Of a stretch of DNA of 33,405 nucleotides, positions 742-23,821 are shown one piece after another. The stretch lies in NCBI GenBank assembly GCA_016191015.1, contig JACPPM010000147.1, positions 1 to 33,405 of the forward strand. The letters run 5' to 3'. The notes under the pieces are model-generated. The model was not told where the DNA came from. It was given only the letters and a program-made list of their open reading frames with translations, and did no database searches. The DNA is from Acidobacteriota bacterium (lineage in GTDB: Bacteria > Acidobacteriota > CAIWXX01). Numbering within the stretch: the first letter of the stretch is position 1; every line of letters begins with the position of its first letter. Both the position numbers and the translations under genes were made by a program.

Positions 742-2610
742 ATGACGAGCAACAACATCGAGAAGACGATCTACCTCGACAACGCGGCCACCAGCTATCC
801 CAAGCCGGACGTGGTCTACGATGCCATGGACACGTTCGCCCGCCAGGTGGGTGGGTCGGGCGGGCGCAGCTCGCACCGCCGGGCCATCGAATCGGCGACG
901 GTGATCGACGGAGCGCGCGAATCGCTCGCCACCTTGCTCGGCGCTAACAACCCCGAGTGCGTCTGTTTCGCGCAAAATGCCACCGAGGCGCTCAACATTG
1001 CCATCTACGGGCTCGCACAACCGGGGCGGCGCATCATCACGAGCATGGCCGAGCACAACTCGGTGCGCCGGCCGCTCGCCGATCTGCGAGATCGGTGCGG
1101 CTGCGAGGTAATCACCGTCCCGGCCGATGGACGCGGAAAATGGGATCCGCGCGCCGTCGTCGAAGCTCTCCGACCGGAGACGGCATTCGTGGTGCTGAGC
1201 TGGGCGAGCAATGTCACCGGGGCGCTCCAGGACATCGAGCTGGTGGCACATGCCTGCCGAGCAATGAATGTCCCGCTGGTTGTCGACGGAGCGCAGGTCT
1301 GCGGCGTTTATCCCGTGAACTTCAAAGAGCTCGGGTTTGCTGCATTGGCCTTCACCGGCCACAAGTCGCTCCTCGGCTCGCAAGGGACGGGCGGTCTGGT
1401 TGTCGATCCAGACTTGGCACCTCGCATCCGGCCGCTCAAGCGTGGCGGGAGCGGCACCGTCAGCCATTCTGAGGTTCACCCCGAGTTACTCCCGGACCGC
1501 TTCGAAGCCGGCACGATGAACTGCCACGGGCTGTCGGGACTGTACGCCGGCGTCGGCTTCTTACTGGAGCGCGGCGTCGAGTCCGTGCGCGCGCACGAGA
1601 TGGCGTTGTGGCGCCGCTTTCGTGAAGGGTTGCGCGAGATCGGCCATGTGCGAGTATACGGGCCGGTGGAGGCGGATCAGTCGGTGAGCATCGTCTCGGT
1701 GACCGTCGACAGAATGGAGCCGACCGACGTCGGCTTCCTCCTGGACATGCGCCACGGGATCTTGACGCGCACCGGCTTGCACTGCGCTCCGGGCGTTCAT
1801 CAGGTCATCGGCACTCTACCCACTGGCACCACCCGCTTCTCGATGGGGTTCTCAACTACCGAGGCCGACGTGGATACCGCCCTGTTCGCGCTCGCACACA
1901 TCCGCGAACGTGAAGCGCGCCCATCCACAGTGCCTACACCCGCGCGTCCTGCAGAGGCGTCAGCCGCCGTTCACGAGAAGTCCTACAAGCTCGATCAACT
2001 CGGCTTCCTCGTCGACAGCCACGAGTGGGACGAGGACTTCGCTCGCGGCATCGCCCCCTCGCTCGGGATCCCAGATGGGCTTACCGATGCGCACTGGAAG
2101 GTCATCCGCTTCCTGCGCGCGGCCACCGCCGAGACCGGCAGGTGTCCACTGGTGTACCACACGTGCAAGAAAACCGGCCTCGGCCTCGTCGACCTCCAGC
2201 GTCTCTTCCCGACCGGCTACCTGCGCGGCGCGTGCAAGATCGCCGGGATAACCTTTCGAGACGGATCGTTCAACGAACCGCGAGCCAGCAAGACCGAGAT
2301 GGCTCCGCATGTGCCGTTCGCGGGCAAGCCTTACCCAGTCAATGCGCAGGGCTTCCTCTTGTCCCCGATCTACTGGGATGAGACATTTGCAGCCGGCCGG
2401 GCCGACGAGCTCGGCATCTCGGGGCCGATGACTGACAAGCACTGGCAGATCATCCGCTGGCTCCGCGAGAGCTTTGAGCGCACCAGGCAGGTGCCGACAG
2501 TATTCGAAACCTGCAACCAGTGCGGAGTCACGATTGACGAGATGGAACAGCTCTTCCCGACAGGCTACCACCGTGGCGCGGTGAAGGTCGCCGGCCTTCG
2601 CGCCCTGTAG
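742..2610 (+). CDS. Cysteine desulfurase fused to two tandem DsrC/TusE-like domains
   Basis: A 622-residue three-domain protein. Residues 1-390 are a class V aminotransferase/cysteine desulfurase of the SufS/CsdA type: the PLP lysine is K208 in FTGHKSLLGSQGTGG and the persulfide-forming cysteine is C348 in RTGLHCAPG. After a Pro/Ala-rich linker come two DsrC/TusE-like domains, about 411-520 and 524-622, each with the GFL..W.E.F start and the LFPTGY.RGA.K.AG end. Of the DsrC redox cysteines, domain 1 keeps only CysB (C498 in RGACKIAG) and lacks the C-terminal CysA; domain 2 has neither (V614 at the CysB position). Both keep a cysteine matching C70 of the stand-alone DsrC. The fusion suggests that persulfide sulfur taken from cysteine is passed within one chain toward the Dsr machinery. 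It is the first enzyme gene of the operon, 28 bp before the next gene. The start has GGAAAGAG upstream. Domain identities are clear; the physiological role is inferred. Confidence 0.88.
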   Translation: MTSNNIEKTIYLDNAATSYPKPDVVYDAMDTFARQVGGSGGRSSHRRAIESATVIDGARESLATLLGANNPECVCFAQNATEALNIAIYGLAQPGRRIITSMAEHNSVRRPLADLRDRCGCEVITVPADGRGKWDPRAVVEALRPETAFVVLSWASNVTGALQDIELVAHACRAMNVPLVVDGAQVCGVYPVNFKELGFAALAFTGHKSLLGSQGTGGLVVDPDLAPRIRPLKRGGSGTVSHSEVHPELLPDRFEAGTMNCHGLSGLYAGVGFLLERGVESVRAHEMALWRRFREGLREIGHVRVYGPVEADQSVSIVSVTVDRMEPTDVGFLLDMRHGILTRTGLHCAPGVHQVIGTLPTGTTRFSMGFSTTEADVDTALFALAHIREREARPSTVPTPARPAEASAAVHEKSYKLDQLGFLVDSHEWDEDFARGIAPSLGIPDGLTDAHWKVIRFLRAATAETGRCPLVYHTCKKTGLGLVDLQRLFPTGYLRGACKIAGITFRDGSFNEPRASKTEMAPHVPFAGKPYPVNAQGFLLSPIYWDETFAAGRADELGISGPMTDKHWQIIRWLRESFERTRQVPTVFETCNQCGVTIDEMEQLFPTGYHRGAVKVAGLRAL

Positions 2611-2638: not shown

Positions 2639-4141
2639 ATGAGGTATGCGTTCGTCGTCGACAATCACCGCTGCATCGGCTGCCACGCTTGTTCAGTTGC
2701 GTGCAAGACCGAAAATCACGTGCCGCTCGGCGTCTTTCGCACCTGGGTCAAGTACGTCGAGAAGGGCCGCTTTCCGAACACCCGCCGGCATTTCCAGGTC
2801 ACGCGATGCAACCACTGCGCCGAGCCACCCTGTGTGGCGATCTGCCCGGTAGCCGCGGTCTCACAACGCCGCGACGGCATCGTCGACTTCAACTCAGCGC
2901 GCTGCATCGGCTGCAAGGCATGCATGCAGGCCTGCCCTTACGACGCCATCTACATCGACCCTGAGCGGCACACGGCCGCTAAGTGCAACTTCTGTGTGCA
3001 TCGCACTGACCTGGGTTTGGCACCGACCTGCGTCGCCGCTTGTCCGGCGCGGGCAATCATCGCTGGCGACCTGGATGATCCTCAGAGCGAGATCTCGCGC
3101 ATCATCGGGCGCGGTCAGGTGAGCGTGCGCAAGGCCGAGCAGGGCACGCGTCCGATGCTTTTCTACGTCGGTGCTGAGCAGACGGCGATCATTCCAGGAG
3201 CTTCCCGCAACGACCGCGCGTACATGTGGTCTGAACCGAACCACGCACTTGATGGCGGACATGAGACTCGCGCCGGCTTACCGACCGGTGGGCGTACTGT
3301 TTACGATGTTGAACACGAGCGTCCATGGGGCTGGCAGATCCCGACCTACTTCTGGACCAAGTCGATCAGTGCCGGCATCTTCGCTGTTCCCGCGCTCGCC
3401 TGCGCCGCCGGGCTGCCGGCGCCAGCTGCTCTAGGCGGGCTGCTCTTGAGCGGCCTGGCACTGTTGTTCATGGCCGCGACGCTGGCGCTGCTCCTCGGCG
3501 ACCTCTCGCGCCGCGAGCGATTCCTACGCGTGCTCCGCAGGCCGCGCTGGCAGTCGTGGGTGTCGCGTGGGGCGTTCTTACTCGTGGCGTATGTCTGCAT
3601 GACGGCGGCCTTCGGCATTGCACACCTGGTCCATGCCCCGCGCCTCGCGACGCTCCTGCTTCTTCCTACGGCCATCACGGGCGGGTTGGCGGCCGTCTAC
3701 ACGGCCTTTCTTCTGGGTCAGTGCGAAGGGCGTGACCTGTGGCAAGCTCCGCTCCTGCCTCTCCACCTCATCGTTCAGGCGGCAATCGCCGGCACAGCCG
3801 TGCTGGCTGTTTTGGGCGTGGGAGCAACGGCGCTCCCCGTGATCTGGTGGGTGCTCGCAGCCGGCCTCGGTCTGCATCTGTTGATGGTGACAATCGAGCT
3901 AGGCCCGCGACATGCCACCGGCAACAGCCTGCTGGCGGCCCGTGCCATCACGCGCGGTCGTTATCGGCGGATCTTCTGGGGCGGGGCAATCGTCGTGGGC
4001 GGCGTGATGCCGGCTCTCCTCCTGGCAGCCGGCCCGGCGGCCGTGTGGGCAACTGCCGCATCCGGCGGGCTGGCACTGCTCGGCCTCCTCGCCTTCGAAT
4101 GGTGTTTCATCATGGGCGGGCAGATCGCCCCGAACAGCTAG
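2639..4141 (+). CDS. SoeB-SoeC-like fusion: four-cluster ferredoxin plus NrfD/DmsC-type membrane anchor
   Basis: A 500-residue electron-transfer subunit. The N-terminal 200 residues carry four [4Fe-4S] cysteine sets as in DmsB/PsrB/SoeB: C12, C15, C18, C22, then CNHCAEPPCVAICP, CIGCKACMQACP and CNFC with CVAACP. The HERPWGWQIPTYFWTKS stretch opens the membrane part, in which I count about eight hydrophobic segments, matching the NrfD/DmsC-type quinone-interacting anchors. In characterised SoeABC and polysulfide reductase systems these are usually two proteins; here they are one. There is no signal peptide, so the iron-sulfur part should face the cytoplasm. The gene lies 21 bp before the catalytic subunit gene. 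A good AGGGGG ribosome site precedes the ATG. Likely role: electron exchange between the molybdoenzyme and the quinone pool. A polysulfide or other sulfur reductase is the alternative. Confidence 0.85.
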   Translation: MRYAFVVDNHRCIGCHACSVACKTENHVPLGVFRTWVKYVEKGRFPNTRRHFQVTRCNHCAEPPCVAICPVAAVSQRRDGIVDFNSARCIGCKACMQACPYDAIYIDPERHTAAKCNFCVHRTDLGLAPTCVAACPARAIIAGDLDDPQSEISRIIGRGQVSVRKAEQGTRPMLFYVGAEQTAIIPGASRNDRAYMWSEPNHALDGGHETRAGLPTGGRTVYDVEHERPWGWQIPTYFWTKSISAGIFAVPALACAAGLPAPAALGGLLLSGLALLFMAATLALLLGDLSRRERFLRVLRRPRWQSWVSRGAFLLVAYVCMTAAFGIAHLVHAPRLATLLLLPTAITGGLAAVYTAFLLGQCEGRDLWQAPLLPLHLIVQAAIAGTAVLAVLGVGATALPVIWWVLAAGLGLHLLMVTIELGPRHATGNSLLAARAITRGRYRRIFWGGAIVVGGVMPALLLAAGPAAVWATAASGGLALLGLLAFEWCFIMGGQIAPNS

Positions 4142-4162
4142 CTGACAGAGAAGAGAACCAAT

Positions 4163-7009
4163 ATGAATGAGTCAGCGACCACCAACAACGAGCTGCTCTC
4201 GTGCCCGCCGGTCGAGAAATGGGACGATTGGGTCGAGTACGATCCGGACGCGTGGCCGGCGCGGGTGGCTCGCCACTACGAGCTCATACCAACGATCTGC
4301 TTCAACTGCGAGTCGGCGTGCGGCTTGTTGGCCTACGTCGACAAAGCGACGGGCCGAGTGTGCAAGTTCGCGGGCAACCCGCTGCACCCTGGCAGCCGTG
4401 GGCGTGTGTGCGCCAAGGGTCCGGCGGTCATCAATCAGATCCACGATCCGGATCGGGTGCTCTATCCCATGAGGCGAGTGGGCAAGCGTGGCGAGGGCAA
4501 GTGGCAGCGCGTTTCCTGGGACGAGGTCATCGAGACCTTGGGCGCACGCATTCGCCGCGCCATCACTGAAGGGCGTGGCGAAGAGGTGATGTACCACGTG
4601 GGCCGGCCGGGGCACGACTTCATCATGGAGCGTCTCGTTCAGTCCTGGGGCATCGACGGACACAACTCGCACACCAACATCTGCTCGGCCGCGGCGCGTC
4701 TCGGCTACGTGCTCTGGCATCACGCCGACCGCCCTTCGCCCGATCACGCCAACGCGCGCTTCATCCTGCTGCTTTCCGCCCACCTCGAGAGCGGGCATTA
4801 CTTCAACCCACACGCGCAACGCATCATCGAGGGCAAGATGAAGGGCGCCAGGCTGGTGGTGATGGATCCCCGGCTCTCGAATACGGCCAGCATGGCAGAC
4901 GAATGGCTGCCGACCTATCCGGGCTCCGAGGCCGCCGTGCTGCTCGCTATGGCCCGAATCATTCTCGACGAGGGATGGTTCGACCGCGAATTCGTGCGCA
5001 CGTGGACCAATTGGCAGGATTACGAGGCCGACGGGTTTGCGGCGCGAGGCAACTCGTTCGACGACTTCGTAGCGGCGCTGCGGAGCCACTATGCACGTTA
5101 CACGCCGGAGCACGCCGAACAGGAGAGCGGCGTCCCGGCGAATCAAATCGTCCGGCTGGCGCGCGAGATCGCGGATGCCGGCAGCCGATTCTCGTCGCAC
5201 GTTTGGCGGGGTGCCGCCTCGGGGAACCTCGGTGGCTGGCAGGTGGCGCGCTCGCTCATGCTCCTGCACGTCCTGACCGGCTCGGTGGGCACGCCCGGCG
5301 GTCACAGCCTGAATGCGTGGGACAAGTTCGTGCCGCGCCCATTCAAGGTGCCGCCTCCGCAAAAGAAATGGAACGAGCTGCTCTATCCGCGCGAGTGGCC
5401 CCTGTCGCACCACGAGCTGTCGTTCCTGCTGCCGCACTTTCTCAAGGAAGGCCGCGGCCGCCTGGACGTCTATTTCACGCGCGTCTTCAACCCGATTTGG
5501 ACGTACCCGGACGGACTGTCCTGGGTCGAGGCCCTGCGAGACGAGAAGCTGGTGGGGTTGCATGCGGCGCTGACGCCGACGTGGAGCGAGACTGCGTGGC
5601 TTTCCGACTACGTCTTGCCGATGGGGTACTCCTCCGAGCGGCACGACCTCATGAGTCAGGAAACGCACGCGTCCCGCTGGATCGGCTTCCGTCAGCCGGT
5701 GTTGCGCGTTTTCAAGGAACGTCGCGGTGAGCCGGTCGATCTTACATGTCAGGCTAATCCCGGCGAGGTGTGGGAAGAAGACGAGCTCTGGATCTCTCTT
5801 TCGTGGGCCATCGATCCGGATGGCTCTCTGGGCATCCGCCAGTACTTCGAGTCCCCGTACCGCCCCGGCGCGCGCATCACGGTGGACGAGTATTATCGCT
5901 GGATCTTCGAGAACTCGGTGCCAGGCTTGCCTGAAGCAGCGGCGCAGAAGGGCCTCACCCCGCTCCACTACATGCGCCGGTACGGCTGCTTCGAGATCGC
6001 CAAGGACGTGTATCGCGTCAACGGGACACCGCTCTCCGAGGCCGACTGCGCGGACGCCGTAGCCAACTCCGCTGGCGTGTTGGAGAAAGACGGCAAGCCC
6101 GTCGGCATCAATATCAGGGGTGAGCGGGTCGTCGGCTTCAACACGCCCTCACGCAAGCTCGAGCTCTATTCGAGCGTTGTCGCGGCCTGGAAGTGGCCCG
6201 ACCAGGCGCTCCCCGAGCACGTGAAGAGCCACGTGCATCCTGCCGCGATTGCGCGAGCGGCCGGTCGCGAGGCGCCTGATTTCGACGCTGCGGCCATGCC
6301 GTCGGTCGAATGGATGGCAGAGGCGTGCGGCGATGTCTACTGCCTCCTGCCGATCTTCCGATTGCCGACGCTCATCCATACTCGGTCTGGGAACGCGAAG
6401 TACCTCTACGAGATCTCGCACAAGAACCCGCTGTGGGTCGCACCCCCTGACGCCGAACGATTGGGCGGTGTCGAGACCGGCGACCTGATCAAGGTGCACA
6501 CCGAGATCGGTTGGTTCGTGCTGCACGCGTGGGTGACCGAGGGGCTGCGGCCGGGTGTGGTCGCGTGCTCGCATCATCTCGGCCGCTGGCGGCTCGGCGA
6601 GGAGAACAAGACCGAGCGCATGTCGAGCGCTCAAGTGGACCTCCAAGAGCTCGGCAAGGGTCGCTGGTTCATGCGGCAACAGCGGGGCGTGCACCCATAC
6701 GAGTCATCCGATCCCGACACATCGCGGATCTGGTGGCGAGATGCCGGCGTGCACCAGAACCTCACTTTCCCGGTCCACCCGGATCCAGTGAGCGGGATGC
6801 ACTGCTGGCACCAAGTCGTGCGCGTGGAGAAGGCCGGGCCAAATGACCGCTACGGCGACATCTTCGTGGACACCAACCTTGCGCACGCCGTGTACAAGAA
6901 GTGGAAGTCTTTCGCGCGTCCTGCTCCCGGCCCCGGTGGGCTTCGTCGCCCGCTCTGGCTCCCCCGTGTCGCGCGCCCAGCACCGGAAGCGTACGTGATG
7001 AACAAGTAA
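4163..7009 (+). CDS. soeA: SoeA-like cytoplasmic molybdopterin oxidoreductase (probable sulfite:quinone oxidoreductase)
   Basis: A 948-residue member of the DMSO reductase/CISM molybdoenzyme family. The N-terminal [4Fe-4S] motif is C46, C49, C53 and C83 in GRVCAKG; a likely molybdenum-ligand cysteine is C174 in HTNICSAAARLGY. There is no twin-arginine signal, which is typical of SoeA and unlike the periplasmic PsrA/PhsA enzymes. With the fused SoeBC protein it would form a membrane complex on the cytoplasmic side that oxidises sulfite to sulfate and reduces quinone. Its place immediately before dsrAB (18-bp gap) fits sulfite made by reverse-acting DsrAB being oxidised in the same compartment. 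The family is certain; sulfite specificity is inferred from missing Tat signal and context. Thiosulfate, tetrathionate or polysulfide remain possible substrates. Confidence 0.75.
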   Translation: MNESATTNNELLSCPPVEKWDDWVEYDPDAWPARVARHYELIPTICFNCESACGLLAYVDKATGRVCKFAGNPLHPGSRGRVCAKGPAVINQIHDPDRVLYPMRRVGKRGEGKWQRVSWDEVIETLGARIRRAITEGRGEEVMYHVGRPGHDFIMERLVQSWGIDGHNSHTNICSAAARLGYVLWHHADRPSPDHANARFILLLSAHLESGHYFNPHAQRIIEGKMKGARLVVMDPRLSNTASMADEWLPTYPGSEAAVLLAMARIILDEGWFDREFVRTWTNWQDYEADGFAARGNSFDDFVAALRSHYARYTPEHAEQESGVPANQIVRLAREIADAGSRFSSHVWRGAASGNLGGWQVARSLMLLHVLTGSVGTPGGHSLNAWDKFVPRPFKVPPPQKKWNELLYPREWPLSHHELSFLLPHFLKEGRGRLDVYFTRVFNPIWTYPDGLSWVEALRDEKLVGLHAALTPTWSETAWLSDYVLPMGYSSERHDLMSQETHASRWIGFRQPVLRVFKERRGEPVDLTCQANPGEVWEEDELWISLSWAIDPDGSLGIRQYFESPYRPGARITVDEYYRWIFENSVPGLPEAAAQKGLTPLHYMRRYGCFEIAKDVYRVNGTPLSEADCADAVANSAGVLEKDGKPVGINIRGERVVGFNTPSRKLELYSSVVAAWKWPDQALPEHVKSHVHPAAIARAAGREAPDFDAAAMPSVEWMAEACGDVYCLLPIFRLPTLIHTRSGNAKYLYEISHKNPLWVAPPDAERLGGVETGDLIKVHTEIGWFVLHAWVTEGLRPGVVACSHHLGRWRLGEENKTERMSSAQVDLQELGKGRWFMRQQRGVHPYESSDPDTSRIWWRDAGVHQNLTFPVHPDPVSGMHCWHQVVRVEKAGPNDRYGDIFVDTNLAHAVYKKWKSFARPAPGPGGLRRPLWLPRVARPAPEAYVMNK

Positions 7010-7027: not shown

Positions 7028-8212
7028 GTGACTGAGAAGAAACCGACTCCACTACTCGACAATCTCGAAGCCGGCCCGTGGCCGAGTTTCGTCAAAGAGC
7101 TCAAGAAGAGCGCCAAGAGCCCGATGGTCCAGGACCTGCTGGGTGTCCTTGAGCGCTCGTACGAGGACAAGATGGGGCACTGGAAGCACGGCGGCCTGGT
7201 CGGGGTCAGGGGGTACGGTGGCGGTGTCATCGGACGATACAACGAGCTCGCCCGGGAGTTCCCGGACGCCGCCGAGTTTCACACGGTGCGCATCAACCAG
7301 CCGGCCGGCTGGTTCTACACATCCGACGTCATCCGCACCCTCTGCGACATCTGGGAGAGACATGGCTCGGGCCTCACCAATTTTCACGGCGCGACGGGAG
7401 ACATCATCTTTCTCGGAGCCAGGACCAGCGAGATCGAGGCGGTGTTCGGTGAGCTCATCGAAGCCGGTTTCGATCTCGGAGGATCGGGCTCGTGCCTGCG
7501 CACGCCGAGCTGCTGCTGCGGTATGGCTCGTTGCGAGTGGGCTTGCTACGACACCATGGCCCTGACGTATGACCTGACGCAGACCTTCCAGGACGAGCTG
7601 CATCGGCCCTCCTTCCCGTACAAGTTCAAGATCAAGAGCTCGGGCTGCCCAAATGACTGCGTCGCCGCGATCGCTCGCGCCGATCTCTCGATCATCGGCA
7701 CGTGGCGTGACGATATCCAGGTCGATAGGACCGCGGTCACCCAGTATGCCGCCGGGGGGCAGATCGACATCGCGGCCGACGTGGTGGCCCGCTGCCCGGC
7801 CGGGTGTATGACGTGGGACGGCCGATCGATCGGGATCGACAACGAGAGCTGCGTCAGATGCATGCACTGCATCAACGCCATGCCGAAGGCGCTCGCTCCC
7901 GGCAAGGACCGCGGCGCAACGGTTCTCGTGGGCGGCAAGGCCACGATCCTCGGCGGCGCCCTGCTCTCCTCGGTGCTCGTACCCTTCTTGAGAATGGAGC
8001 CGCCCTACGATGACCTCAAGGAGCTCATTCGCGCCATCTGGGACCTGTGGGGCGACCACGGCAAGAACCGCGAGCGCGTCGGCGAGTTCATTCAGCGCAT
8101 CGGCCTCGGCAACTTCCTCGAACAAATCGGCCTCGACCCGCAGCCTGAGATGGTCGCGCAGCCGAGGACGAATCCTTACATCTCCTACGAGCCCAAGGAA
8201 GGGAGACCGTAG
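7028..8212 (+). CDS. dsrA: Dissimilatory sulfite reductase alpha subunit DsrA
   Basis: 394 residues, close to the usual length of about 400-440. The siroheme-[4Fe-4S] ligand pattern is present: C163 and C169 in [15 protein letters not shown], and C207 and C211 in GCPNDC. The signature [20 protein letters not shown] is that of DsrA, although the usual KCSGC reads KSSGC. A ferredoxin insert follows, with CPAGC and CVRCMHC. The start is GTG, supported by AGGAG five bases upstream. With DsrB it forms the alpha2beta2 enzyme that interconverts sulfite and DsrC-bound sulfur in the cytoplasm. It is followed directly by dsrB. The three consecutive cysteines C162-C164 are unusual. Whether this enzyme is of reductive or oxidative type cannot be read from motifs alone; a tree is needed. 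Confidence 0.97.
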
Positions 8213-9301
8213 ATGTGCCCCGCCCCAGCCAAGAGGAAGACCGACATCGGCGCGCCGCACTACGACAAGTTTCTGCCGCCGATCATCAAGAGGAACTACG
8301 GCAACTGGAGACATCACGAACTGCCGCGGCCGGGCGTTGTCGTGCACGTTGCCGAATCTGGCGACAAGCTCTATTCGGTGCGCGCCGGCAGCCCGCGCCT
8401 CTTGAGTATCGAAACGCTGCGACTCTTCGCCGCGATCGCGGATGAGTTTTCGGACGGCTACCTGCGGTTCACGAGCCGCAACAACGTCGAGTTCCTGCTC
8501 GCCGACCCGGCCAAAGTCGATCCCCTCATCGCACGGCTGAAGCAGGAGGGGTACCCGGTCGGCGGTACTGGGGCATCCATCACCAACATCGTCCACACCC
8601 AGGGGTGGGTGCACTGCAACTCGGCGGCCTCGGACGCCTCGGGCGTCGTCAAGTCCGTGATGGACGAGCTCCTCCCGTACTTCGAGTCCATGACGTTGCC
8701 CGCGCGGCTGCGCATCGCCTTCGCCTGCTGCCTCAACATGTGCGGCGCCGTGCACTGCTCGGACATCTCCATCCTCGGCATGCACCGCCGCCCGCCGAAG
8801 ATCAATCACGCCACACTGGCGAAGAACTGCGAGATCCCGACGACGATCGCCTCATGCCCGACCGGCGCCGTGCGCCCGGCCACCGTCGACGGCAAGCCGT
8901 CGCTCGAGATCATCGAGGAGCAGTGCGTGTTGTGCGGAAACTGCTGCGCGGTCTGCCCGTCCATGAGCCTCAACGACCCTGGTGACGGAATCTCGATCTG
9001 GGTCGGCGGCAAGGTTTCGAATGCGCGCCGCGAGCCGATGTTCTCGAAGCTCGCCATTCCCTACCTGCCGAACAATCCGCCGCGCTGGCCTGAGGTCGTT
9101 TCGGCCGTCAAGAACCTCGTCGAAGTCTACGCCGCCCACGCTCGGAGATTCGAACGCATGGGCGAGTGGATCGAGCGGATCGGTTGGCCGAGGTTCTTCA
9201 AGCTCACCGGCATCGAGTTCACCAAGCACCACATTGACGATTTCAGACACGCGGGCGAGAGCTTCAAACGATCCGTGCACCTCCGTCGGCCACCAGCGTG
9301 A
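8213..9301 (+). CDS. dsrB: Dissimilatory sulfite reductase beta subunit DsrB
   Basis: 362 residues, normal length. Conserved segments are [16 protein letters not shown] (C134), [15 protein letters not shown] (C172, C173, C177, C182) that ligate the catalytic siroheme-[4Fe-4S] centre, and a ferredoxin domain with [12 protein letters not shown] (C238 to C248). It is the catalytic partner of DsrA. The ATG begins at the base after the dsrA stop codon, with AAGGGAG upstream, so the two are translationally coupled. Its TGA overlaps the GTG of dsrD. Nothing in the active-site motifs suggests loss of function. Confidence 0.97.
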
Positions 9302-9552
9302 CCATCAAGCCAATGGGCAGCATGACTGTCGAGCAGGTGGCGGAGGCCATGTATGCGCTGGTGAAGGAATGCCACGGCAAACGAAACCTCAGGGCCACCG
9401 ATCTCACTAAGGCGATGATCGATAAGATCGGCGCGGAAAGCTGCGACAAGCAGATGTGCAAGGAGGCCATCCGACTGCTCGTGGACGGTGGCCGCTGCAC
9501 GTACGCGTACCTCGGCGGAAGCTACATCGTGTTGCCGCCGGAGACTTGTTGA
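9298..9552 (+). CDS. dsrD: DsrD-like winged-helix protein, activator of DsrAB
   Basis: A small protein of 84 residues, in the size range of DsrD (about 78) and in the DsrD position directly after dsrB. The predicted fold is a winged helix: helices around AEAMYALV and [11 protein letters not shown], then a two-stranded wing in [12 protein letters not shown]. DsrD is known to bind DsrAB and stimulate sulfite reduction, and is used as a marker of the reductive direction. The GTG at 9298 overlaps the dsrB stop; ATG codons at 9313 and 9322 are alternatives, the last giving 76 residues. Similarity to characterised DsrD is structural rather than strong at residue level. It is unusually cysteine-rich (C32, C57, C62, C75, C84, counted from the GTG start). 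Confidence 0.75.
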
Positions 9553-9553
9553 C

Positions 9554-11236
9554 ATGAGCCTGCTGAAGAAGCCGGCGATCGCCAAGCCCCTGCGCCTCGC
9601 ACCACGAGGTGGTGTTGGCGTTTCTGCAGCTCGGCCGAGGCAGGTCGAGAAGCTCGCGCCCTGCGCCATGTACTGCCCGGCCGGCAACGACATTCGCGGC
9701 ATCGCGGCGCTCATCGCGCAGCGCGAGAAAACCGGTCTGTCCCTCGAGGAGGCCTGCGATCGGGCCTGGCGCCTCGCCGTCGAGACCACCCCGTTCCCGG
9801 CGGTGCTGGGCCGCATCTGCGCGCACCCCTGCGAGAGCCGTTGCAATCGCAAAGCGAAAGACAGCGCTGTCGCGATCAACTCGCTCGAGCGCTTTGTCGG
9901 CGACTGGGGACTTATGCGCCGTTTGAAGTTGCCCGGTTACGATGGTGGCGCTTCGCCTGGCGCGCAAGTCGCCGTCATCGGTGCCGGTCCCGCCGGCATG
10001 TCGTGCGCCTATCAGCTTGTGCGGCGAGGCTATCGCGTCACAGTGTTTGAGAGCCTGCCGCAAGCCGGGGGCATGCTGCGTTACGGCATCCCACCTCACC
10101 GTTTGCCACGGCGCGTCCTCGATGACGAGATCCACCGCATCGTTGATCTGGGCGTCGAGCTGCGTTGTGCGACTCCGATCGGGACGGCGATCAGCCTCGA
10201 TGAGGTGCACAGAGATTTCGCGGCGGTGTTCCTGAGCATCGGCGCTCATGTGGGTAGGCGGCTCGATGTCGTCGGTGCCGAGGGAACGGGTGTCTACCTC
10301 GGTGCCGACTTCCTGCGCCGCGTGGCAATCGGAGAGAGACCGCAGCTCGGCAACAAGATCGTCGTGGTCGGTGGCGGCAACACCGCCATCGATGCGGCTC
10401 GCCTGTGCGTTCGCTTGTTGGGCGCGGGCGCCGAGATCGCACTGTTGCGTCAAGAGAACGAGACGATATCCAACGAACTGATGGGCGCTGTCCAGGAGAG
10501 GGTCAGGGTTGAATTGCTCGCGACGGTCGCGAGCATCGAGCGCGCGACTTCGGGATGCATCACCAAGGTGGTGGCTCAGCGTGTCGATCTCGGCGCGCCA
10601 GACGCGTCTGCGTACCCGGCGCTGCAGCCGGTTTCAGGCGGAACGTTCGACATCGAAGCCGACACGCTCATTTTGGCGGTCGGCCAGCGGCCCGACTTCC
10701 GGAGCCTCGGCAGAGCTTTCGGCAAGATCACGTCGCTCGATGTCGACGCCTCGGGCAAGACGAGGTTCACGGGCATGTGGTCCGGGGGCGACGCGGTGAG
10801 GAGCGGCACAGCAGCCGCCGCGATCGCGCAAGGCCGCCGAGCGGCCCTCGCCATCCACGCCCAACTCAGCGGTGAGACTGTCCAGGAATCCCCGCACCGT
10901 CCCGACATCGGCCCGGAACGACTCAAGCTCGACTACTACGAGACCAAGCCACGGGCTGAGCGCAAGACGGTACCGGTCGCGGATCGGGTTGCTGATCTGA
11001 GCATCGAGATCGACCAGGGCATCGAGCCGGCGCAAGCGTTGTGCGAAGCCACACGCTGCCTGTCCTGTGGCCGCTGCTTCGGGTGCGAACGCTGTTGGAT
11101 GTTCTGTACGCCGGCGGACATCGCGAAACTCCCTGCTGTGGCGACGGGCAGCTACTTCCGAATCAAGAACGAGGCGTGTGATGGGTGCAAGAAGTGCGCA
11201 GAGGAATGCCCGAGCGGTTTCCTCGAGATGGCCTAG
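9554..11236 (+). CDS. dsrL: DsrL, NAD(P)H-linked iron-sulfur flavoprotein partner of DsrAB
   Basis: 560 residues, related to the small subunit of glutamate synthase. An N-terminal cysteine set (C37, C41, C89, C93, C97) binds Fe-S; the FAD motif is VIGAGPAG (143-148) and the pyridine-nucleotide motif is VVVGGGNTAID (about 270-280). A C-terminal double ferredoxin has C497, C502, C505, C508, C511, C514, C518 and C542, C545, C548, C552. DsrL shuttles electrons between NAD(P)(H) and DsrAB and is needed for sulfur oxidation in Allochromatium vinosum; related forms occur in reducers and disproportionators. The ATG at 9554 is one base after the dsrD stop, and an upstream in-frame extension has no support. 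It is shorter than the roughly 650-residue A. vinosum protein, lacking extra C-terminal sequence. The NADP-type RR pair after the second Rossmann strand reads RQ. Confidence 0.92.
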   Translation: MSLLKKPAIAKPLRLAPRGGVGVSAARPRQVEKLAPCAMYCPAGNDIRGIAALIAQREKTGLSLEEACDRAWRLAVETTPFPAVLGRICAHPCESRCNRKAKDSAVAINSLERFVGDWGLMRRLKLPGYDGGASPGAQVAVIGAGPAGMSCAYQLVRRGYRVTVFESLPQAGGMLRYGIPPHRLPRRVLDDEIHRIVDLGVELRCATPIGTAISLDEVHRDFAAVFLSIGAHVGRRLDVVGAEGTGVYLGADFLRRVAIGERPQLGNKIVVVGGGNTAIDAARLCVRLLGAGAEIALLRQENETISNELMGAVQERVRVELLATVASIERATSGCITKVVAQRVDLGAPDASAYPALQPVSGGTFDIEADTLILAVGQRPDFRSLGRAFGKITSLDVDASGKTRFTGMWSGGDAVRSGTAAAAIAQGRRAALAIHAQLSGETVQESPHRPDIGPERLKLDYYETKPRAERKTVPVADRVADLSIEIDQGIEPAQALCEATRCLSCGRCFGCERCWMFCTPADIAKLPAVATGSYFRIKNEACDGCKKCAEECPSGFLEMA

Positions 11237-11272: not shown

Positions 11273-11590
11273 ATGGCACAGATAGTAGTGGGGGACGTCA
11301 CCATCGAGGTCGATGAGGACGGCTTCATCCAAGAGCCGGAGAAGTGGAACGTCAAGGTAGCTCAGGCACTGGCCGAGACCGAGTATGTCAACGAGCTCAC
11401 CGAGGGCCACTGGAGGCTCGTCAACTATCTGCGCGAGTACTACCAAAAGTTCGGCGTTGCGCCGATGATCCGCAAGCTGTGCAAGGAGACCGGCATGAAG
11501 CTCGCTGAGATATACGAGCTCTTCCCCACGGGCCCAGCCAAAGGTGCGTGCAAGGTCGCCGGCCTGGCCAAGCCCACGGGCTGCGTCTAG
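11273..11590 (+). CDS. dsrC: DsrC, sulfur-carrier substrate protein of DsrAB
   Basis: 105 residues with every DsrC hallmark: the start of the fold at DEDGFIQEPEKWN, the helix pair around GHWRLVNYLREYY, and the flexible C-terminal arm. Both redox cysteines are present: CysB (C93 in KGACKVAG) and the penultimate CysA (C104 in PTGCV). This makes it a true DsrC able to form the trisulfide with DsrAB, in contrast to TusE (CysA only) and to the two degenerate copies fused to the desulfurase at 742-2610. It lies between dsrL and dsrM, so the trisulfide product can be handled by DsrMKJOP. Start is set by a strong AAAGGAG. Confidence 0.97.
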   Translation: MAQIVVGDVTIEVDEDGFIQEPEKWNVKVAQALAETEYVNELTEGHWRLVNYLREYYQKFGVAPMIRKLCKETGMKLAEIYELFPTGPAKGACKVAGLAKPTGCV

Positions 11591-11595
11591 TCGGG

Positions 11596-12528
11596 GTGGA
11601 CGTGCCAGGCCTGTGCCTCTTCTTCGGCGTCATCGTTCCAAGCCTCGCAGTTGTCTCCTTCTTCGGCGGGTTCGCCTGGAAGGCCATCGGATGGGCACGC
11701 TCGCCCGTGCCTTTCCACATCCCGATCACCTGCGGCCAGCAGCGTTCGCTGCCGTGGATTCGCTCCAACCGCCTCGACAATCCGCACACGCCGATGGGAG
11801 CGGCATTGCGAGTGGCCCTCGCAGTGCTCCTCTTTCGCCCTCTGCTGCGCAACACAATGACCGAAATCTACGCTGGACCCAAGCTCACGTATGCGCCGAG
11901 CAGATGGCTTTGGCTGTTTGCGGTCATGTTTCACTGGTCCATGCTGGTCATCGTGCTGCGTCACCTGCGTCTCTTCGTCGAGCCCGTGCCCGCCTGGGTC
12001 CTGACGTTACAGCGATTCGACAGGTTCTTCGAGGTGGGTCATCCGGTGATCCACGCGTCAACTGTCCTCTTTGTTCTCGGACTTGGGCTGCTGCTGCTCC
12101 GCCGTTTGAGCTCCCCTCAGCTCCGCTACATCTCGATCTTGAATGACTACTTCCCGCTCTTCCTCCTGCTCGGCATCGGTGCGACCGGCACGCTCTTGCG
12201 CCACTATTCGAACAGCGACGCGGCGGCAATCAAGGAATTCGTTATGGGCTTGGTGACACTTTCGCCTCTTGCGGTGTCCGGCATCCCTGCGCTCTTCTAC
12301 GTGCACCTCTTCCTGGTGAGCGTGCTCCTGGCGTATTTCCCGTGGAGCAAGCTCATGCACATGCCCGGCGTCCTGATGAGCCCGACCTTGAACCTCGCCA
12401 ACAATAGCCGCGCCGTTCGCCACGTCAACCCGTGGAACCCTCCCGTCGGAGTCCATTCGTACGCCGAATACGAGGACGAGTTCCGCGGGCGCATGATCGA
12501 AGCCGGCCTCCCGGTCGACAAGCTCTAG
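11596..12528 (+). CDS. dsrM: DsrM, membrane cytochrome b subunit of DsrMKJOP
   Basis: About 310 residues, a NarI-like integral membrane protein that binds heme b and exchanges electrons between quinone and DsrK. The segment ARSPVPFHIPITCGQQRSLP near the N-terminus is a DsrM signature, and several hydrophobic helices follow, with histidines in MFHWSMLVIVLRHLRLF and FYVHLFLVSVLL placed as heme ligands would be. No ATG is suitably placed at the front: GTG at 11596 or 11602, just after the dsrC stop, is the likely start; the reading frame continues upstream into dsrC without need. It ends two bases before dsrK. Confidence 0.92.
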   Translation: MDVPGLCLFFGVIVPSLAVVSFFGGFAWKAIGWARSPVPFHIPITCGQQRSLPWIRSNRLDNPHTPMGAALRVALAVLLFRPLLRNTMTEIYAGPKLTYAPSRWLWLFAVMFHWSMLVIVLRHLRLFVEPVPAWVLTLQRFDRFFEVGHPVIHASTVLFVLGLGLLLLRRLSSPQLRYISILNDYFPLFLLLGIGATGTLLRHYSNSDAAAIKEFVMGLVTLSPLAVSGIPALFYVHLFLVSVLLAYFPWSKLMHMPGVLMSPTLNLANNSRAVRHVNPWNPPVGVHSYAEYEDEFRGRMIEAGLPVDKL

Positions 12529-12530
12529 GC

Positions 12531-14156
12531 ATGGCGGTCAATGTGAAGCCCGATCAGCCTGAGTACTACAATCACGAACAGCTCACTCAAATCGACTATC
12601 GGCCGCCGGCACAAGCGTGGGAGTCGAGGCCCGTCACGATCCGGCCGGGCTCATTCCTTCACCCCGCCAAACCGAAAGGCGCCAGCTCTCTCGGCCTGCC
12701 GCACCCGCGCCAGTGGTCGCCGATGGACGAGGATTGGAAACTCCCGGCCGACTGGAAAGAGATCATCATCACAGGCATGAAGGAGCGCCTCGAGAAATAC
12801 CGCTCCTTCAAGATCTTCATGGACACCTGCGTCCGCTGCGGCGCCTGCGCCGACAAGTGTCACTTCTTCATCGGGAGCGGTGACCCCAGGAACATGCCCG
12901 TTCTGCGCGCCGAGCTGTTGCGTTCGATCTATCGCAACGACTTCACACTCACGGGCCGACTGCTTGGCACGCTGGCCGGCGGCCGCGAGCTCACCGTCGA
13001 TGTCATCAAAGAGTGGTTCGCCTACTTCTACCAATGCACCGAGTGCCGGCGCTGTTCGGTGTTTTGCCCCTTCGGCATCGACACGGCCGAGATCACGATG
13101 ATGGCGCGCGAGCTGTTGCAGCTCGTCGGGGTGTCGGTCAACTGGATCATCGAGCCCGCCGCCAACTGTGATCGCACCGGCAATCATCTTGGCATCCAGC
13201 CGCACGGGATGAAGGACACGCTCGAATTCTTCGCGGACGAAATAGAGGAGCTGACCGGCGTGCGCGTCAACGTCCCGATCAACAAAAAGGGGGCAGAGAT
13301 TCTCTTCGTCACGCCCTCCGGCGACTTGCTCGCCGATCCCGGCACGTACACGTGCATGGGCTACCTCGCGCTCTTCCACGAGATCGGCTTAAACTACACC
13401 TGGAGCACGTATGCCTCGGAAGGCGGCAACTTCGGCCTGTTCTCGTCGGCCGACCTGATGAAGCGCCTCAACGCCAAGATCTTCGCCGAAGCCCGGCGCC
13501 TTGGCGTTCGGTGGATCCTGGGCGGTGAATGCGGCCACATGTGGCGCGTCGTTCACCAATACATGGACACGATGAACGGCCCAGCCGATTTCCTGGACGT
13601 GCCGGTCTCGCCTGTCACCGGCACGCGCTTCAGCCACGCACGCTCCACGAAGATGGTGCACATCGCCGAGTTCACCGCCGACCTCGTGAAGAACGGCAGA
13701 CTCACGCTCGATGCGAGTCGCAACGACCGCCTGCGCGTGACTTTTCACGACTCGTGCAACCCGGCACGTGCGATGGGACTGATCGAGGAGCCGCGAGCCG
13801 TGTTGAAGAGCGTCTGCCGGAATTTCTTCGAGATGCCCGAGGAGACCATTCGCGAGAAAACCTTATGCTGCGGCGGCGGGGCGGGGCTCGGCGCCGGCGA
13901 GAACATGGAGGTGCGCCTGCGCGGCGGCATGGCGCGTGGATTGGCCGTCAAGCACGTGCGCGACGCGCATGGGGTCAATCGCCTGGCCACGATCTGCGCG
14001 ATCGATCGCGTCACGCTGACCACGGTGTGCGACTACTGGGCGCCGGGCGTCAAGGTCGCCGGTCTGCACGAGCTGGTCGCAAACGCACTGGTCATGAAAG
14101 GTCAAAAGAAGCGCACACATGACTTCCGGCACGAGCCGCTGGATCCGGAGAGTTAG
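12531..14156 (+). CDS. dsrK: DsrK, HdrD-like iron-sulfur catalytic subunit of DsrMKJOP
   Basis: 541 residues, cytoplasmic. Two ferredoxin motifs are seen (C100, C103, C106, C110; and C169, C172, C175, C179 in CTECRRCSVFCP), followed by the heterodisulfide-reductase type CCG domain: GGECGHMWRVV, HDSCNPARAMG and LCCGGGAGLG with C446-C447. This domain carries the noncubane [4Fe-4S] cluster thought to reduce or form the DsrC trisulfide/disulfide. The ATG at 12531 is two bases after the dsrM stop; an in-frame upstream extension overlapping dsrM is not needed. It is followed by dsrJ after six bases. Confidence 0.96.
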   Translation: MAVNVKPDQPEYYNHEQLTQIDYRPPAQAWESRPVTIRPGSFLHPAKPKGASSLGLPHPRQWSPMDEDWKLPADWKEIIITGMKERLEKYRSFKIFMDTCVRCGACADKCHFFIGSGDPRNMPVLRAELLRSIYRNDFTLTGRLLGTLAGGRELTVDVIKEWFAYFYQCTECRRCSVFCPFGIDTAEITMMARELLQLVGVSVNWIIEPAANCDRTGNHLGIQPHGMKDTLEFFADEIEELTGVRVNVPINKKGAEILFVTPSGDLLADPGTYTCMGYLALFHEIGLNYTWSTYASEGGNFGLFSSADLMKRLNAKIFAEARRLGVRWILGGECGHMWRVVHQYMDTMNGPADFLDVPVSPVTGTRFSHARSTKMVHIAEFTADLVKNGRLTLDASRNDRLRVTFHDSCNPARAMGLIEEPRAVLKSVCRNFFEMPEETIREKTLCCGGGAGLGAGENMEVRLRGGMARGLAVKHVRDAHGVNRLATICAIDRVTLTTVCDYWAPGVKVAGLHELVANALVMKGQKKRTHDFRHEPLDPES

Positions 14157-14162: not shown

Positions 14163-14546
14163 ATGGCCGATGGCGCGAAGGTGGCTGGCGGGCTCATGGT
14201 CTTCGTTGCTCTCGCATGCGCGCCGATCTGGCTCGTCCTGGCTCGTCGCTCGACGGCTTCGCAACCGGAGATCGAGCTGCCAGTCGGCCAGAAGCGGTGC
14301 GTTGAGTCGGCGGAGTTCATGCGACAACGGCACGCCGCACTGCTCGTCGACTGGCGCGACGCCGTCGTCCGCGAGGGACTCAATCGCTACGTCGCATCAG
14401 ACGGGCGCGAGTTCCGCATCAGCCTGACCGGCACGTGCCTCGGCTGCCACACCCAGGCATCCGCGTTCTGCGATCGCTGCCACGCCTACATCGGGGTCAG
14501 CCCGGAGTGTTGGAGTTGCCACGTTAGACCCTCGGAGAATCCGTGA
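14163..14546 (+). CDS. dsrJ: DsrJ, periplasmic triheme cytochrome c
   Basis: 127 residues. An N-terminal uncleaved anchor (about residues 7-27) is followed by a periplasmic domain with three heme c motifs: CLGCH (92-96), CDRCH (103-107) and CWSCH (116-120). C46 in GQKRCVES stands where A. vinosum DsrJ has the cysteine that ligates one heme in the unusual His/Cys coordination. As part of DsrMKJOP it links periplasmic redox chemistry to DsrO/DsrP. A GGAGAG site precedes the ATG, and the stop codon overlaps the dsrO start. Confidence 0.95.
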   Translation: MADGAKVAGGLMVFVALACAPIWLVLARRSTASQPEIELPVGQKRCVESAEFMRQRHAALLVDWRDAVVREGLNRYVASDGREFRISLTGTCLGCHTQASAFCDRCHAYIGVSPECWSCHVRPSENP

Positions 14547-15316
14547 TGGACAGGAGAGACTTTATCAAGACAGCGGGGCTCGGCGCGTTTGGTCTGGGAG
14601 GTGCCGCCGTTGGAACGGCGCTCATTCGGGCGACCACCACGAAGCCATCGCGGGAGGTCGTGAGAGCCAAACGCTGGGCGATGGGGATCGATCTCCGCGC
14701 TTGTGCGCAACACCCCGGCTGCCGGAAGTGCATCGACGCATGCCACGCGGCGCACAACGTTCCGTCGATCCCCGAGCCCCGGCACGAGGTGAAATGGCTG
14801 TGGAAGGCGACTTACGAGCGCACCTTTCCGGAGCAGGTCCACGAGTACACTACGGCCACCACGCGCGAGCAGCCTGTGCCCGTTCTATGCAACCACTGCG
14901 CAAATGCGCCGTGCGCCCGCGTCTGCCCCACCGGCGCGACCTGGAAGCGCGCCGACGGCATCGTCATGATGGACGAACACCGCTGCATCGGCTGCCGCTA
15001 TTGCATGGCGGCGTGCCCGTATGGGGCGCGCAGCTTCAACTGGCAGGATCCACGCCCCTATCTTCACACGGTGACTGCGGACTACCCGACCCGGGCGAAA
15101 GGTGTGGTCGAGACGTGCACCTTCTGCGCCGAACGGCTTGTGGCCGGGCTTCCGCCCGCGTGTGTTGAGGCTTGCCAAGCGGCGGGCTTTGGAGCGCTTC
15201 TGTTCGGTGATCCCGATGAGCCCGGTGCGGAGATTGGCCGAGCGCTACGCGCGCGTGACGCGCTGCGGCGCAGCCCAGCGCTCGGCACGGCCCCGCAGGT
15301 CTTCTACCTGGTGTAA
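14546..15316 (+). CDS. dsrO: DsrO, Tat-exported periplasmic iron-sulfur subunit
   Basis: 256 residues starting with a twin-arginine signal, MDRRDFIKTAGLGAFGLGG. The mature part has four ferredoxin cysteine sets, including CIDACHAAHN, CNHCANAPCARVCP, CIGCRYCMAACP and CTFC with CVEACQ. DsrO passes electrons between DsrJ and the quinone-reactive DsrP in the periplasm. The ATG at 14546 overlaps the dsrJ TGA (ATGA-type overlap); a GTG at 14543 is an alternative. It resembles the ferredoxin half of the SoeBC fusion but is exported and is a separate protein. Confidence 0.95.
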   Translation: MDRRDFIKTAGLGAFGLGGAAVGTALIRATTTKPSREVVRAKRWAMGIDLRACAQHPGCRKCIDACHAAHNVPSIPEPRHEVKWLWKATYERTFPEQVHEYTTATTREQPVPVLCNHCANAPCARVCPTGATWKRADGIVMMDEHRCIGCRYCMAACPYGARSFNWQDPRPYLHTVTADYPTRAKGVVETCTFCAERLVAGLPPACVEACQAAGFGALLFGDPDEPGAEIGRALRARDALRRSPALGTAPQVFYLV

Positions 15317-15323
15317 TCTCTCC

Positions 15324-16454
15324 ATGCACACACCCGGTCTGACTCGGCCTCGTTTGTACTGGTGCGCCGTGGCCGCACTGGGCCTGCTCGTGGCGTTGGG
15401 CATCGCCGCCTATTCGCGTCAGCTCGCCAGCGGCATGCAGATCACGGGCCTCTCTCGTGACATCGCTTGGGGGTTGTACATCTCCCAGTTCACGTTTCTG
15501 GTTGGTGTGGCCGCCTCAGCGGTGATGGTCGTCCTGCCGTACTATCTTCACGGCTTTGAAGCTTTCGGGAAACTCACGGTCATCGCGGAATTCCTCGCCG
15601 TCGCGGCGCTGCTGATGTGCTTGCTCTTTGTGTTTGTCGACATGGGTCGGCCAGCGCGCGTCCTGAACGTGCTTCTAAATCCGTCGCCAGGCTCACTGAT
15701 GTTCTGGGACCTCCTGGTCCTCGCCGGCTATCTTCTCCTGAACCTCGTTCTTTTGCGCACCACACTCGTTGCGGATCGCTATGGCGTGCCCCTGCCGGCA
15801 TGGGTCCGGTCGCTCGTCTACATCTCGATTCCCTGGGCCTTCGGGATTCATACGGTGACAGCTCTCCTCTATGCAGGCCTCTCGGCAAAACCTGCTTGGA
15901 TGACCGCCATCTTGGCCCCGCGCTTCTTGGCTTCGGCCTTCGCCTCAGGTCCGGCGCTCCTCATCATCCTCGCGCTGATCTTGCGCTGGACTACCAGGAT
16001 CCATGTTGAGGCGATCGACAAGCTCGGAGAAATCGTGGCTTACGCGATGACCGCAAATGTGCTCTTCACCGCGCTCGAGATGTTCACAGCCCTCTACAGC
16101 GGCATTCCAGATGAGGCTGAGCACTTCGAATACCTTTTTGTCGGGTTCCTGGCCCCATGGGCGTGGGCATCGACATTTCTGGCGATCGTGGCGCTCGCGA
16201 TTCTGTTGGTTCCGAAGGCGCGGCGCAACGCCATGTTGCTCGCCGTCGCGTGCTTGGCCGTTGTCGGATCAGTGTGGATCGATAAGGGGCTGTGCATGAT
16301 CGTGGCTGGCTTCGCGCCGACACCTCTGGGCGATGTCACCGAGTATTGGCCCACACTCCCGGAAATCTCAATCGCGGCTGGCATCTACGCGGCGGGCTCG
16401 CTCGTGCTTCTGGTGCCCGGCCGGTGGGTACTCGCTCGCCGCGAACAACAGTAG
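15324..16454 (+). CDS. dsrP: DsrP, NrfD-family membrane quinone subunit
   Basis: 376 residues with about ten hydrophobic segments, of the NrfD/PsrC family. Family features are the ITGLSRDIAWGLYISQFTFL region in the first third and VDMGRPARVLN in the loop after an early helix. It is the integral partner of DsrO in DsrMKJOP and exchanges electrons with quinone. The ATG at 15324 comes seven bases after the dsrO stop; the reading frame is open further upstream but that part overlaps dsrO and is not real. The next gene begins eight bases later. Confidence 0.94.
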   Translation: MHTPGLTRPRLYWCAVAALGLLVALGIAAYSRQLASGMQITGLSRDIAWGLYISQFTFLVGVAASAVMVVLPYYLHGFEAFGKLTVIAEFLAVAALLMCLLFVFVDMGRPARVLNVLLNPSPGSLMFWDLLVLAGYLLLNLVLLRTTLVADRYGVPLPAWVRSLVYISIPWAFGIHTVTALLYAGLSAKPAWMTAILAPRFLASAFASGPALLIILALILRWTTRIHVEAIDKLGEIVAYAMTANVLFTALEMFTALYSGIPDEAEHFEYLFVGFLAPWAWASTFLAIVALAILLVPKARRNAMLLAVACLAVVGSVWIDKGLCMIVAGFAPTPLGDVTEYWPTLPEISIAAGIYAAGSLVLLVPGRWVLARREQQ

Positions 16455-16461
16455 AGACGAC

Positions 16462-20127: not shown

Positions 20128-20198
20128 GACACTTCTCCTCGTGTTTTCGATACGCTCCAGGTCTTGGGGTGTTCTTTCTGTGTCGTTGCCGCCGGGAA

Positions 20199-20219
20199 TC
20201 ATGATCCTTCGAATCGCAT
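20199..20219 (-). CDS. Possible six-residue leader peptide upstream of cysK
   Basis: The frame MRFEGS then stop starts with ATG four bases after AAAGGAG. Its TGA overlaps an ATG in frame with cysK (ATGA overlap at 20202-20199), a typical translational-coupling geometry. It has no cysteine codon, so it is not a simple cysteine-attenuation peptide. It may be chance. Confidence 0.3.
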
Positions 20220-20234
20220 TGTGCTCCTTTGCCT

Positions 20235-20250
20235 ATGGGATTAGTCATAT
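20235..20250. promoter_or_regulatory. Candidate Rrf2 operator, copy 2 (cysK promoter)
   Basis: ATGGGATTAGTCATAT on the plus strand differs from the copy at 20703-20718 in one base and shares GATWAGTCAT with the copy at 195-210. It overlaps the presumed -10 box of the cysK promoter. Confidence 0.6.
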
Positions 20251-20276
20251 AACAAAACTGAGAAAGAAATGGGCAA
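20247..20276 (-). promoter_or_regulatory. Probable cysK-cysE promoter
   Basis: On the minus strand TTGCCC (20276-20271) is followed after 18 bp by TTATAT (20252-20247). The boxes are imperfect, but location between rrf2 and cysK and overlap with the operator-like site support use. Read-through from the rrf2 promoter is also possible. Confidence 0.4.
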
Positions 20277-20288
20277 CGTTCGCATGGT

Positions 20289-20690: not shown

Positions 20691-20702
20691 CCAGCTCTCA
20701 CA

Positions 20703-20718
20703 ATATGACTAATCACAT
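20703..20718. promoter_or_regulatory. Candidate Rrf2 operator, copy 3 (second rrf2 promoter)
   Basis: Read on the minus strand it is ATGTGATTAGTCATAT, five bases after... the -10 box region and ending 12 bases before the rrf2 start codon, the same position as copy 1 in front of the first paralog. Confidence 0.6.
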
Positions 20719-20722
20719 GGGA

Positions 20723-22964: not shown

Positions 22965-22975
22965 CATGCTCTCCT

Positions 22976-23800: not shown

Positions 23801-23821
23801 GGAGCTGATGCCCTCATCAGG

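Follow-up and report, generated by a model that had tools for sequence, protein, structure and literature searches.

Why should a cysteine desulfurase stand at the front of a dsr operon, and why should it carry two DsrC domains on the same polypeptide? These questions are raised by a gene at positions 742 to 2610 of a 33,405-nucleotide stretch of DNA (here called the window) from an Acidobacteriota bacterium whose genome, 6.43 Mb in size, is estimated to be 100% complete. Gene fusions reveal partnerships, and the present case directs attention to one that holds in dozens of Acidobacteriota genomes lacking dissimilatory sulfite reductase, between DsrC and the TIGR01977 desulfurases, a family whose annotation goes no further than hypothetical equivalog.

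A desulfurase joined to two DsrC domains

A frame check showed positions 742 to 2610 to be one open frame of 622 codons on the forward strand, and profile searches bear out the original prediction of a complete desulfurase followed in the same frame by two tandem DsrC-like domains. The desulfurase domain (residues 1 to 387; positions 742 to 1902) matches TIGR01977, the cysteine desulfurase/selenocysteine lyase family of EF_2568, over residues 10 to 387 with 412.5 bits, exceeding the curated cut-off of 377. Residues K208, H105, D182, Q185, and C348 are all present and do not vary among seven aligned TIGR01977 proteins; K208 is the PLP lysine and C348, inside a TGLHCAP motif, the catalytic cysteine. 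The domain misses the SclA cut-off (313 versus 525 bits), a score that does not fix the substrate as cysteine or selenocysteine, and its closest solved structures are cysteine desulfurases, with SufS and CsdA types prominent. A Pro/Ala-rich linker (residues 388 to 409; positions 1903 to 1968) leads to two stretches that match the DsrC family PF04358, one at residues 410 to 503 (domain 1; positions 1969 to 2250) and the other at about residues 527 to 620 (domain 2, residues 527 to 622; positions 2320 to 2607). The double-DsrC part alone, as modeled by AlphaFold (pLDDT 88, pTM 0.59), matches DsrC structures, with TM-scores by target length of 0.87 to 0.90 against 2V4J_C and 3OR2_C, and consists of two well-predicted domains joined by a low-confidence linker. 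A domain search of the fusion found no MOSC, FdhD, DNA-binding, or signaling domain.

The cysteines also fall where they had been predicted. Domain 1 keeps CysB (C498) and has Ser509 (codon at 2266 to 2268) at the CysA position, 11 residues beyond CysB, while domain 2 has Val at the CysB position and ends before the CysA arm. Three further cysteines, C468 and C475 in domain 1 and C591 in domain 2, are conserved as well and had not been mentioned in the prediction.

The fusion looks genuine on the given sequence rather than a read-through of two genes, because the linker contains neither a stop codon nor a Shine-Dalgarno-like start signal and third-position GC is similar across the three domains (0.81, 0.86, and 0.81). 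An assembly or sequencing artifact that joined adjacent genes through a lost stop codon is a concern chiefly because the protein is a singleton: no second fused copy was found among 396 Acidobacteriota genomes or in a scan of the genomes of 84,980 species, and the source genome's class is represented by one other genome in the collection searched. Set against this are the in-frame, gapless join and the long tree branch on which the desulfurase and the double-DsrC part each sit. The read error that had been raised as a possible refutation, such as a single wrong base that removed a stop, is very improbable. As far as the collections searched show, the fusion protein is unique. It is also the source genome's sole TIGR01977 match at an E value of 1e-95 or below, and the fusion and the DsrC of the operon described below are that genome's only DsrC-family proteins.

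Known systems share parts of this design. With DsrC (TIGR03342/PF04358) the fusion has in common the fold, the CysB of domain 1, and the LFPxG...GAxKxAG motif, but it differs in its tandem domains, its lack of CysA and of a free C-terminal arm, and its attachment to an enzyme. TusE of the E. coli sulfur relay, which has the same fold and acts downstream of a cysteine desulfurase, keeps a penultimate cysteine that is absent from the C terminus of the fusion (...KVAGLRAL). The IscS/TusA/TusBCD/TusE and TusA/DsrEFH/DsrC relays follow a common logic in which a desulfurase or carrier passes sulfur to a DsrC-family protein, whereas the window operon lacks DsrEFH and holds the desulfurase and the DsrC fold in one polypeptide. 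The molybdenum cofactor sulfurases ABA3 and MOCOS, in which a NifS-like domain is fused to MOSC, likewise join a desulfurase to a sulfur-passing domain; the fusion has DsrC domains in that place. None of the other TIGR01977 members examined carries a DsrC domain.

The operon and its direction of sulfur flow

The gene had been predicted to head a dsr operon. It does head a co-directional operon, but dsrA does not follow it directly, because two molybdoenzyme genes of SoeABC/PsrABC type intervene. All genes of the operon lie on the forward strand, and an Rrf2-family regulator (225 to 626; PF02082, 92 bits) is encoded directly 5' of the fusion. The first molybdoenzyme gene (2639 to 4141; PF13247, PF03916) specifies a 4Fe-4S protein of the SoeB/PsrB kind fused to an NrfD membrane protein of the SoeC/PsrC kind, and the second (4163 to 7009; PF00384) a molybdopterin subunit resembling SoeA/PsrA; the gaps from the fusion through these two to dsrA are 28, 21, and 18 bp. 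There follow a dsrA probably of the reductive clade (7028 to 8212; TIGR02064, 561.7 bits), dsrB (8213 to 9301; TIGR02066, 498.8 bits), a small open reading frame (9298 to 9552), dsrL (9554 to 11236), and a dsrC that, by family profile and sequence, has both CysA and CysB (11273 to 11590). The small frame has no Pfam match and is DsrD-like by position and resemblance only; 12 further dsr loci of the phylum have a homologue, in most cases immediately 3' of dsrB. Downstream come dsrM (11548 to 12528; NF038037, 446.8 bits), for which the longest frame is given and whose true start is probably further in, dsrK (12432 to 14156, longest frame; NF045796, 708.4 bits), dsrJ (14163 to 14546; NF038038, 141.9 bits), dsrO (14543 to 15316; PF13247 and position), dsrP (15102 to 16454, longest frame; PF03916 NrfD and position), and a CysG-like siroheme synthase (16333 to 18279, longest frame; NF007922, 427.9 bits). 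Elsewhere the source genome encodes one TusA and two DsrE-family proteins. On the opposite strand 3' of the operon (19180 to 24846) lie genes for a PLP enzyme of cysteine synthase fold, a second Rrf2 protein (20289 to 20690), and a sulfate-type ABC transporter.

The window DsrA belongs with the DsrA proteins of its phylum, since it shares 64 to 74% identity with them (36% with the exceptional L193) and 46% with phage-borne rdsrA. Acidobacteriota dsr systems have been described as sulfate or sulfite reducing, with a DsrL of type 2 (PMC8528874), and an acidobacterial DsrL-2 is paired with reductive-type DsrA (PMC7596348). In that same survey reductive-type DsrA was always paired with DsrL-2, and the NADP-binding YRR motif was replaced, as YNK, in only two candidate genera (PMC7596348). 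The window DsrL lacks YRR and has a local deletion, although its DsrAB groups with the reductive-type proteins of the phylum; other Acidobacteriota DsrL proteins keep the motif (nine sequences covering the site). A search of the source genome for AprA, which would mark sulfate reduction or Apr-based sulfur oxidation, found none, and DsrAB is the genome's sole NIR_SIR-family protein. Gene content would accommodate either direction of flow, with cysteine sulfur reduced to sulfide via DsrMK or oxidized by DsrAB to sulfite that passes to the molybdoenzyme.

The molybdoenzyme, whose Fe-S and NrfD parts are fused and whose genes lie inside a dsr operon, has close relatives in Thermomicrobium, Rhodococcus, and haloarchaea. 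Its Mo subunit shares 60% identity, over 95% of its length, with a protein of Thermomicrobium roseum and 57% with one encoded on Rhodococcus jostii pRHL3, and inspection of its N terminus revealed no Tat motif. In Thermomicrobium, Rhodococcus, and Natrinema a gene of 4Fe-4S/NrfD type lies directly 5' of the Mo subunit gene; on pRHL3 the pair is preceded by DsrE-like and TusA-like genes and has metallo-beta-lactamase-fold hydrolases near it. We infer a SoeABC-like enzyme, that is, a sulfite dehydrogenase, and a Psr/Phs-type reductase is a possible alternative.

Desulfurases and DsrC beyond the window

Of the 396 Acidobacteriota genomes, 61 have both a protein of the DsrC family and a desulfurase of TIGR01977, and in 39 of these the two lie no more than 6 kb apart. 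The counts rest on coordinates collated by hand and on two E-value-limited searches, the one for DsrC starting from a double-DsrC query, and they include related genomes that do not count as independent cases. The pair lies within 6 kb in 38 of the 45 genomes that lack dsrA and in 1 of the 16 that have it, with a median gap of about 1.9 kb over all linked genomes. Because these genomes are several Mb in size, well under one such pair would be expected by chance, and the case for a recurrent functional link between TIGR01977 and DsrC in Acidobacteriota is strong. An HmcF/TmcB/DsrK-like gene is also present in 23 of 28 linked loci inspected, most of them with a four-transmembrane (4TM) protein, and the DsrC tails have both CysA and CysB in all 20 checked and, in a further alignment, with the single exception of L051. 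Earlier reports of the second cysteine of DsrC came almost exclusively from organisms that have DsrAB (PMC3397948). A conserved cluster of DsrC, a 4TM protein, an HmcF/TmcB/DsrK-like Fe-S protein, and TIGR01977 recurs in loci L047 to L054 and L282 to L301, in Acidobacteriota genomes most of which lack dsrAB. No description of this cluster was found in the literature searched, and the wider partnership across the phylum is apparently undescribed.

Related arrangements occur elsewhere. In Syntrophobacteraceae and Myxococcota a CysA-only DsrC homologue adjoins TIGR01977, and in L338 and L342 such a pair has an adjacent Mo subunit of xanthine dehydrogenase type, while in L337 it stands beside an 885-residue gene similar in size to the Mo subunit; these three loci may represent a molybdenum cofactor sulfuration module. 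One acidobacterial cluster (L053, 2170 to 12617) combines a Psr/Sre-like molybdoenzyme, a YeeE-type sulfur transporter, DsrC, an HmcF-like protein, and a TIGR01977 desulfurase.

Descent of the fusion desulfurase from the DsrC-linked TIGR01977 clade is not supported, as it groups with unlinked members on a long branch (13 rows, SH-aLRT 95). Because it falls outside the linked clade, the fusion unites the two families for a second time, independently, and is not an offshoot of the common module. Its closest stand-alone relatives have mostly housekeeping-like neighbors, except for a Se/S-carrier-like gene in L331, and no desulfurase was found near the other Acidobacteriota dsr loci (19 loci with dsrA inspected).

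The double-DsrC half comes from a different background. Three aligned double-DsrC proteins served as query in the scan of the genomes of 84,980 species, from which the source genome and very near ones may be missing. It returned 89 relatives, and 80 loci were kept; the family set comprises 95 proteins. Their hosts include Zixibacteria, Syntrophobacteraceae, Desulfobacterales, Chloroflexota, Ignavibacteria, Calditrichota, and Acidobacteriota, among others, and within Acidobacteriota a tandem DsrC pair was found in only 3 of 396 genomes, two of them stand-alone. The relatives inspected are stand-alone proteins, most of them near 220 residues, with no desulfurase fusion among the 80 loci and no dsrA or dsrB in their flanks (some contigs being short); where other genomes encode a double DsrC, TIGR01977 and DsrC are as a rule not neighbors. 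The fusion, seen here only, gives no ground for saying that this domain order always accompanies dsrAB. C498 is invariant in the 95 sequences (100%), C468, C591, and C475 are conserved in 96, 97, and 86% of them, and Val occupies the CysB position of domain 2 in 96%. No double-DsrC protein has a cysteine C-terminal to the domain 2 motif, and Cys occurs at the exact CysA spacing of domain 1 in 2 of 92 relatives, a sign that the ancestor was probably a complete DsrC. The window copy has the family features (tandem DsrC, C468, C498, and C591, and GYHRGAVK in domain 2), is 41 to 53% identical to 52 relatives, and sits on a long branch in a clade labeled mainly Syntrophobacteraceae/Myxococcota (98/93).

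Neighbors of this broad stand-alone family (L061 to L140) are varied and include NiFe hydrogenase genes, histidine kinases and other two-component genes, hmcABC/F, formate dehydrogenase-N, DsrK/HmcF-like genes, and an IscS-SelD fusion. In L074 the double-DsrC gene overlaps a DsrK/HmcF-like gene, and in L099 it stands 5' of hmcABC and hmcF. The viral collection held no relatives in scans with the single desulfurase protein or the double-DsrC alignment, and only distant desulfurases (20 to 34%) in a scan with the desulfurase alignment; a plasmid search with the double-DsrC part gave no match, and a literature search returned nothing relevant on RspA-type or tandem DsrC proteins.

Possible routes for cysteine sulfur

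Our preferred reading, which we advance tentatively, is that the fusion is a desulfurase with a tethered DsrC-type docking or acceptor module that delivers cysteine sulfur to proteins of its own operon, with the intact DsrC as the likeliest recipient. A SufS-like desulfurase carries in cis a double-DsrC module taken from the widespread stand-alone family. Cysteine would yield a persulfide on C348, the DsrC-fold pair would position the enzyme on its operon partners, and sulfur would pass to an intact carrier, most probably CysA of the operon DsrC, and on to DsrAB/DsrMKJOP. On this view C498 would not be the carrier itself but may take up sulfur transiently or serve as a resolving thiol, the part played by CysB in DsrC. 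The tight operon with the molybdoenzyme genes, dsrAB, dsrL, dsrC, and dsrMKJOP speaks for this reading, together with the recurrence of TIGR01977 beside DsrC in dsrA-lacking Acidobacteriota, the CysA-only pairs of Syntrophobacteraceae and Myxococcota, the persulfuration of Allochromatium vinosum DsrC by IscS (PMC3397948), the invariance of C498, the DsrK/HmcF-like and hmc neighbors in L074 and L099, and the scarcity of other TIGR01977 and DsrC proteins in the source genome. Against it, the genes directly 3' of the fusion encode a molybdoenzyme and not Dsr proteins, the desulfurase is outside the DsrC-linked clade, other dsr loci of the phylum have no desulfurase nearby, and the fusion lacks CysA, the only cysteine of Allochromatium vinosum DsrC that takes up sulfur (PMC3397948).

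That last observation bears most heavily on the built-in relay of the original prediction, in which sulfur would move from C348 to C498 to DsrC so that cysteine feeds sulfite reductase. The invariance of C498 and an operon with dsrC and dsrAB would suit such a relay. In vitro, however, E. coli IscS and cysteine persulfurated A. vinosum DsrC on CysA only, and CysB, the residue retained here, was irrelevant and carried no sulfur (PMC3397948). The relay is thus weakest where it makes C498 a carrier, and with the CysA position replaced by Ser509 or deleted we consider it improbable. The prediction was half right: a desulfurase and DsrC do pair in the phylum, and a functional link between them is in keeping with that recurrence and with the IscS result, while the cysteine relay as it was stated is doubtful. 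Its alternative, in which the domains dock on Dsr proteins but do not complete the redox cycle, agrees better with the residues present. The best rival to our preferred reading is that the fusion uses cysteine to sulfurate the molybdenum cofactor of the enzyme whose genes follow it immediately (2639 to 7009), which we regard as rather unlikely. IscS with FdhD sulfurates formate dehydrogenases, and NifS-like proteins act so for molybdenum hydroxylases. The short gaps to the molybdoenzyme genes, the modules of L337, L338, and L342, the cluster of L053, and the placing of double-DsrC genes 5' of a formate dehydrogenase-N gene in L134 all argue for it, as does the position of the TIGR01977 namesake EF_2568 within a region for a selenium-dependent molybdenum hydroxylase (PMC2276186). 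Yet, except in L053, the common Acidobacteriota DsrC-desulfurase module has no molybdoenzyme among the neighbors scanned, the fusion has neither MOSC nor FdhD, and the same molybdoenzyme pair lacks a neighboring desulfurase in Thermomicrobium, Rhodococcus, and Natrinema.

A role in regulation is also to be weighed, in which the double-DsrC part would sense thiols or act as an adaptor and the whole protein would tune the operon together with Rrf2. Histidine kinases are frequent beside stand-alone double-DsrC genes, above all in the nearest relatives of the window copy, a sigma-54 activator adjoins the copy in L045, and Rrf2 genes lie directly 5' here and in L111, L116, and L118. The absence of DNA-binding and signaling domains from the fusion speaks against such a role, and the presence of a complete desulfurase among metabolic genes favors a chemical function; we judge regulation to be an outside possibility.

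Beyond our preferred reading of the fusion, one might speculate that cysteine is a respiratory sulfur substrate, TIGR01977 enzymes persulfurating DsrC and DsrK/HmcF-type membrane complexes turning over the DsrC disulfide or trisulfide that results, whether DsrAB is present or not, and that the window protein is the fused form within a dsr operon, an idea we think unlikely as it stands. Should cysteine sulfur indeed enter redox cycling of the DsrC type, DsrC would do more than serve sulfite reduction, sulfur oxidation, and tRNA thiolation, and finding a dsrC with both cysteines would no longer be evidence that a genome supports inorganic sulfur dissimilation. Genomes with DsrC and the desulfurase and without DsrAB make the idea directly testable.

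Two observations on stand-alone double-DsrC loci touch on selenium. In L078 (9998 to 12875) a gene for an IscS/NifS-SelD fusion lies directly 3' of the double-DsrC gene and hints at a selenium link, and in L134 (10892 to 14020) and L129 (3952 to 5163) the formate dehydrogenase-N gene beside double-DsrC is apparently split by a stop codon that possibly encodes selenocysteine.
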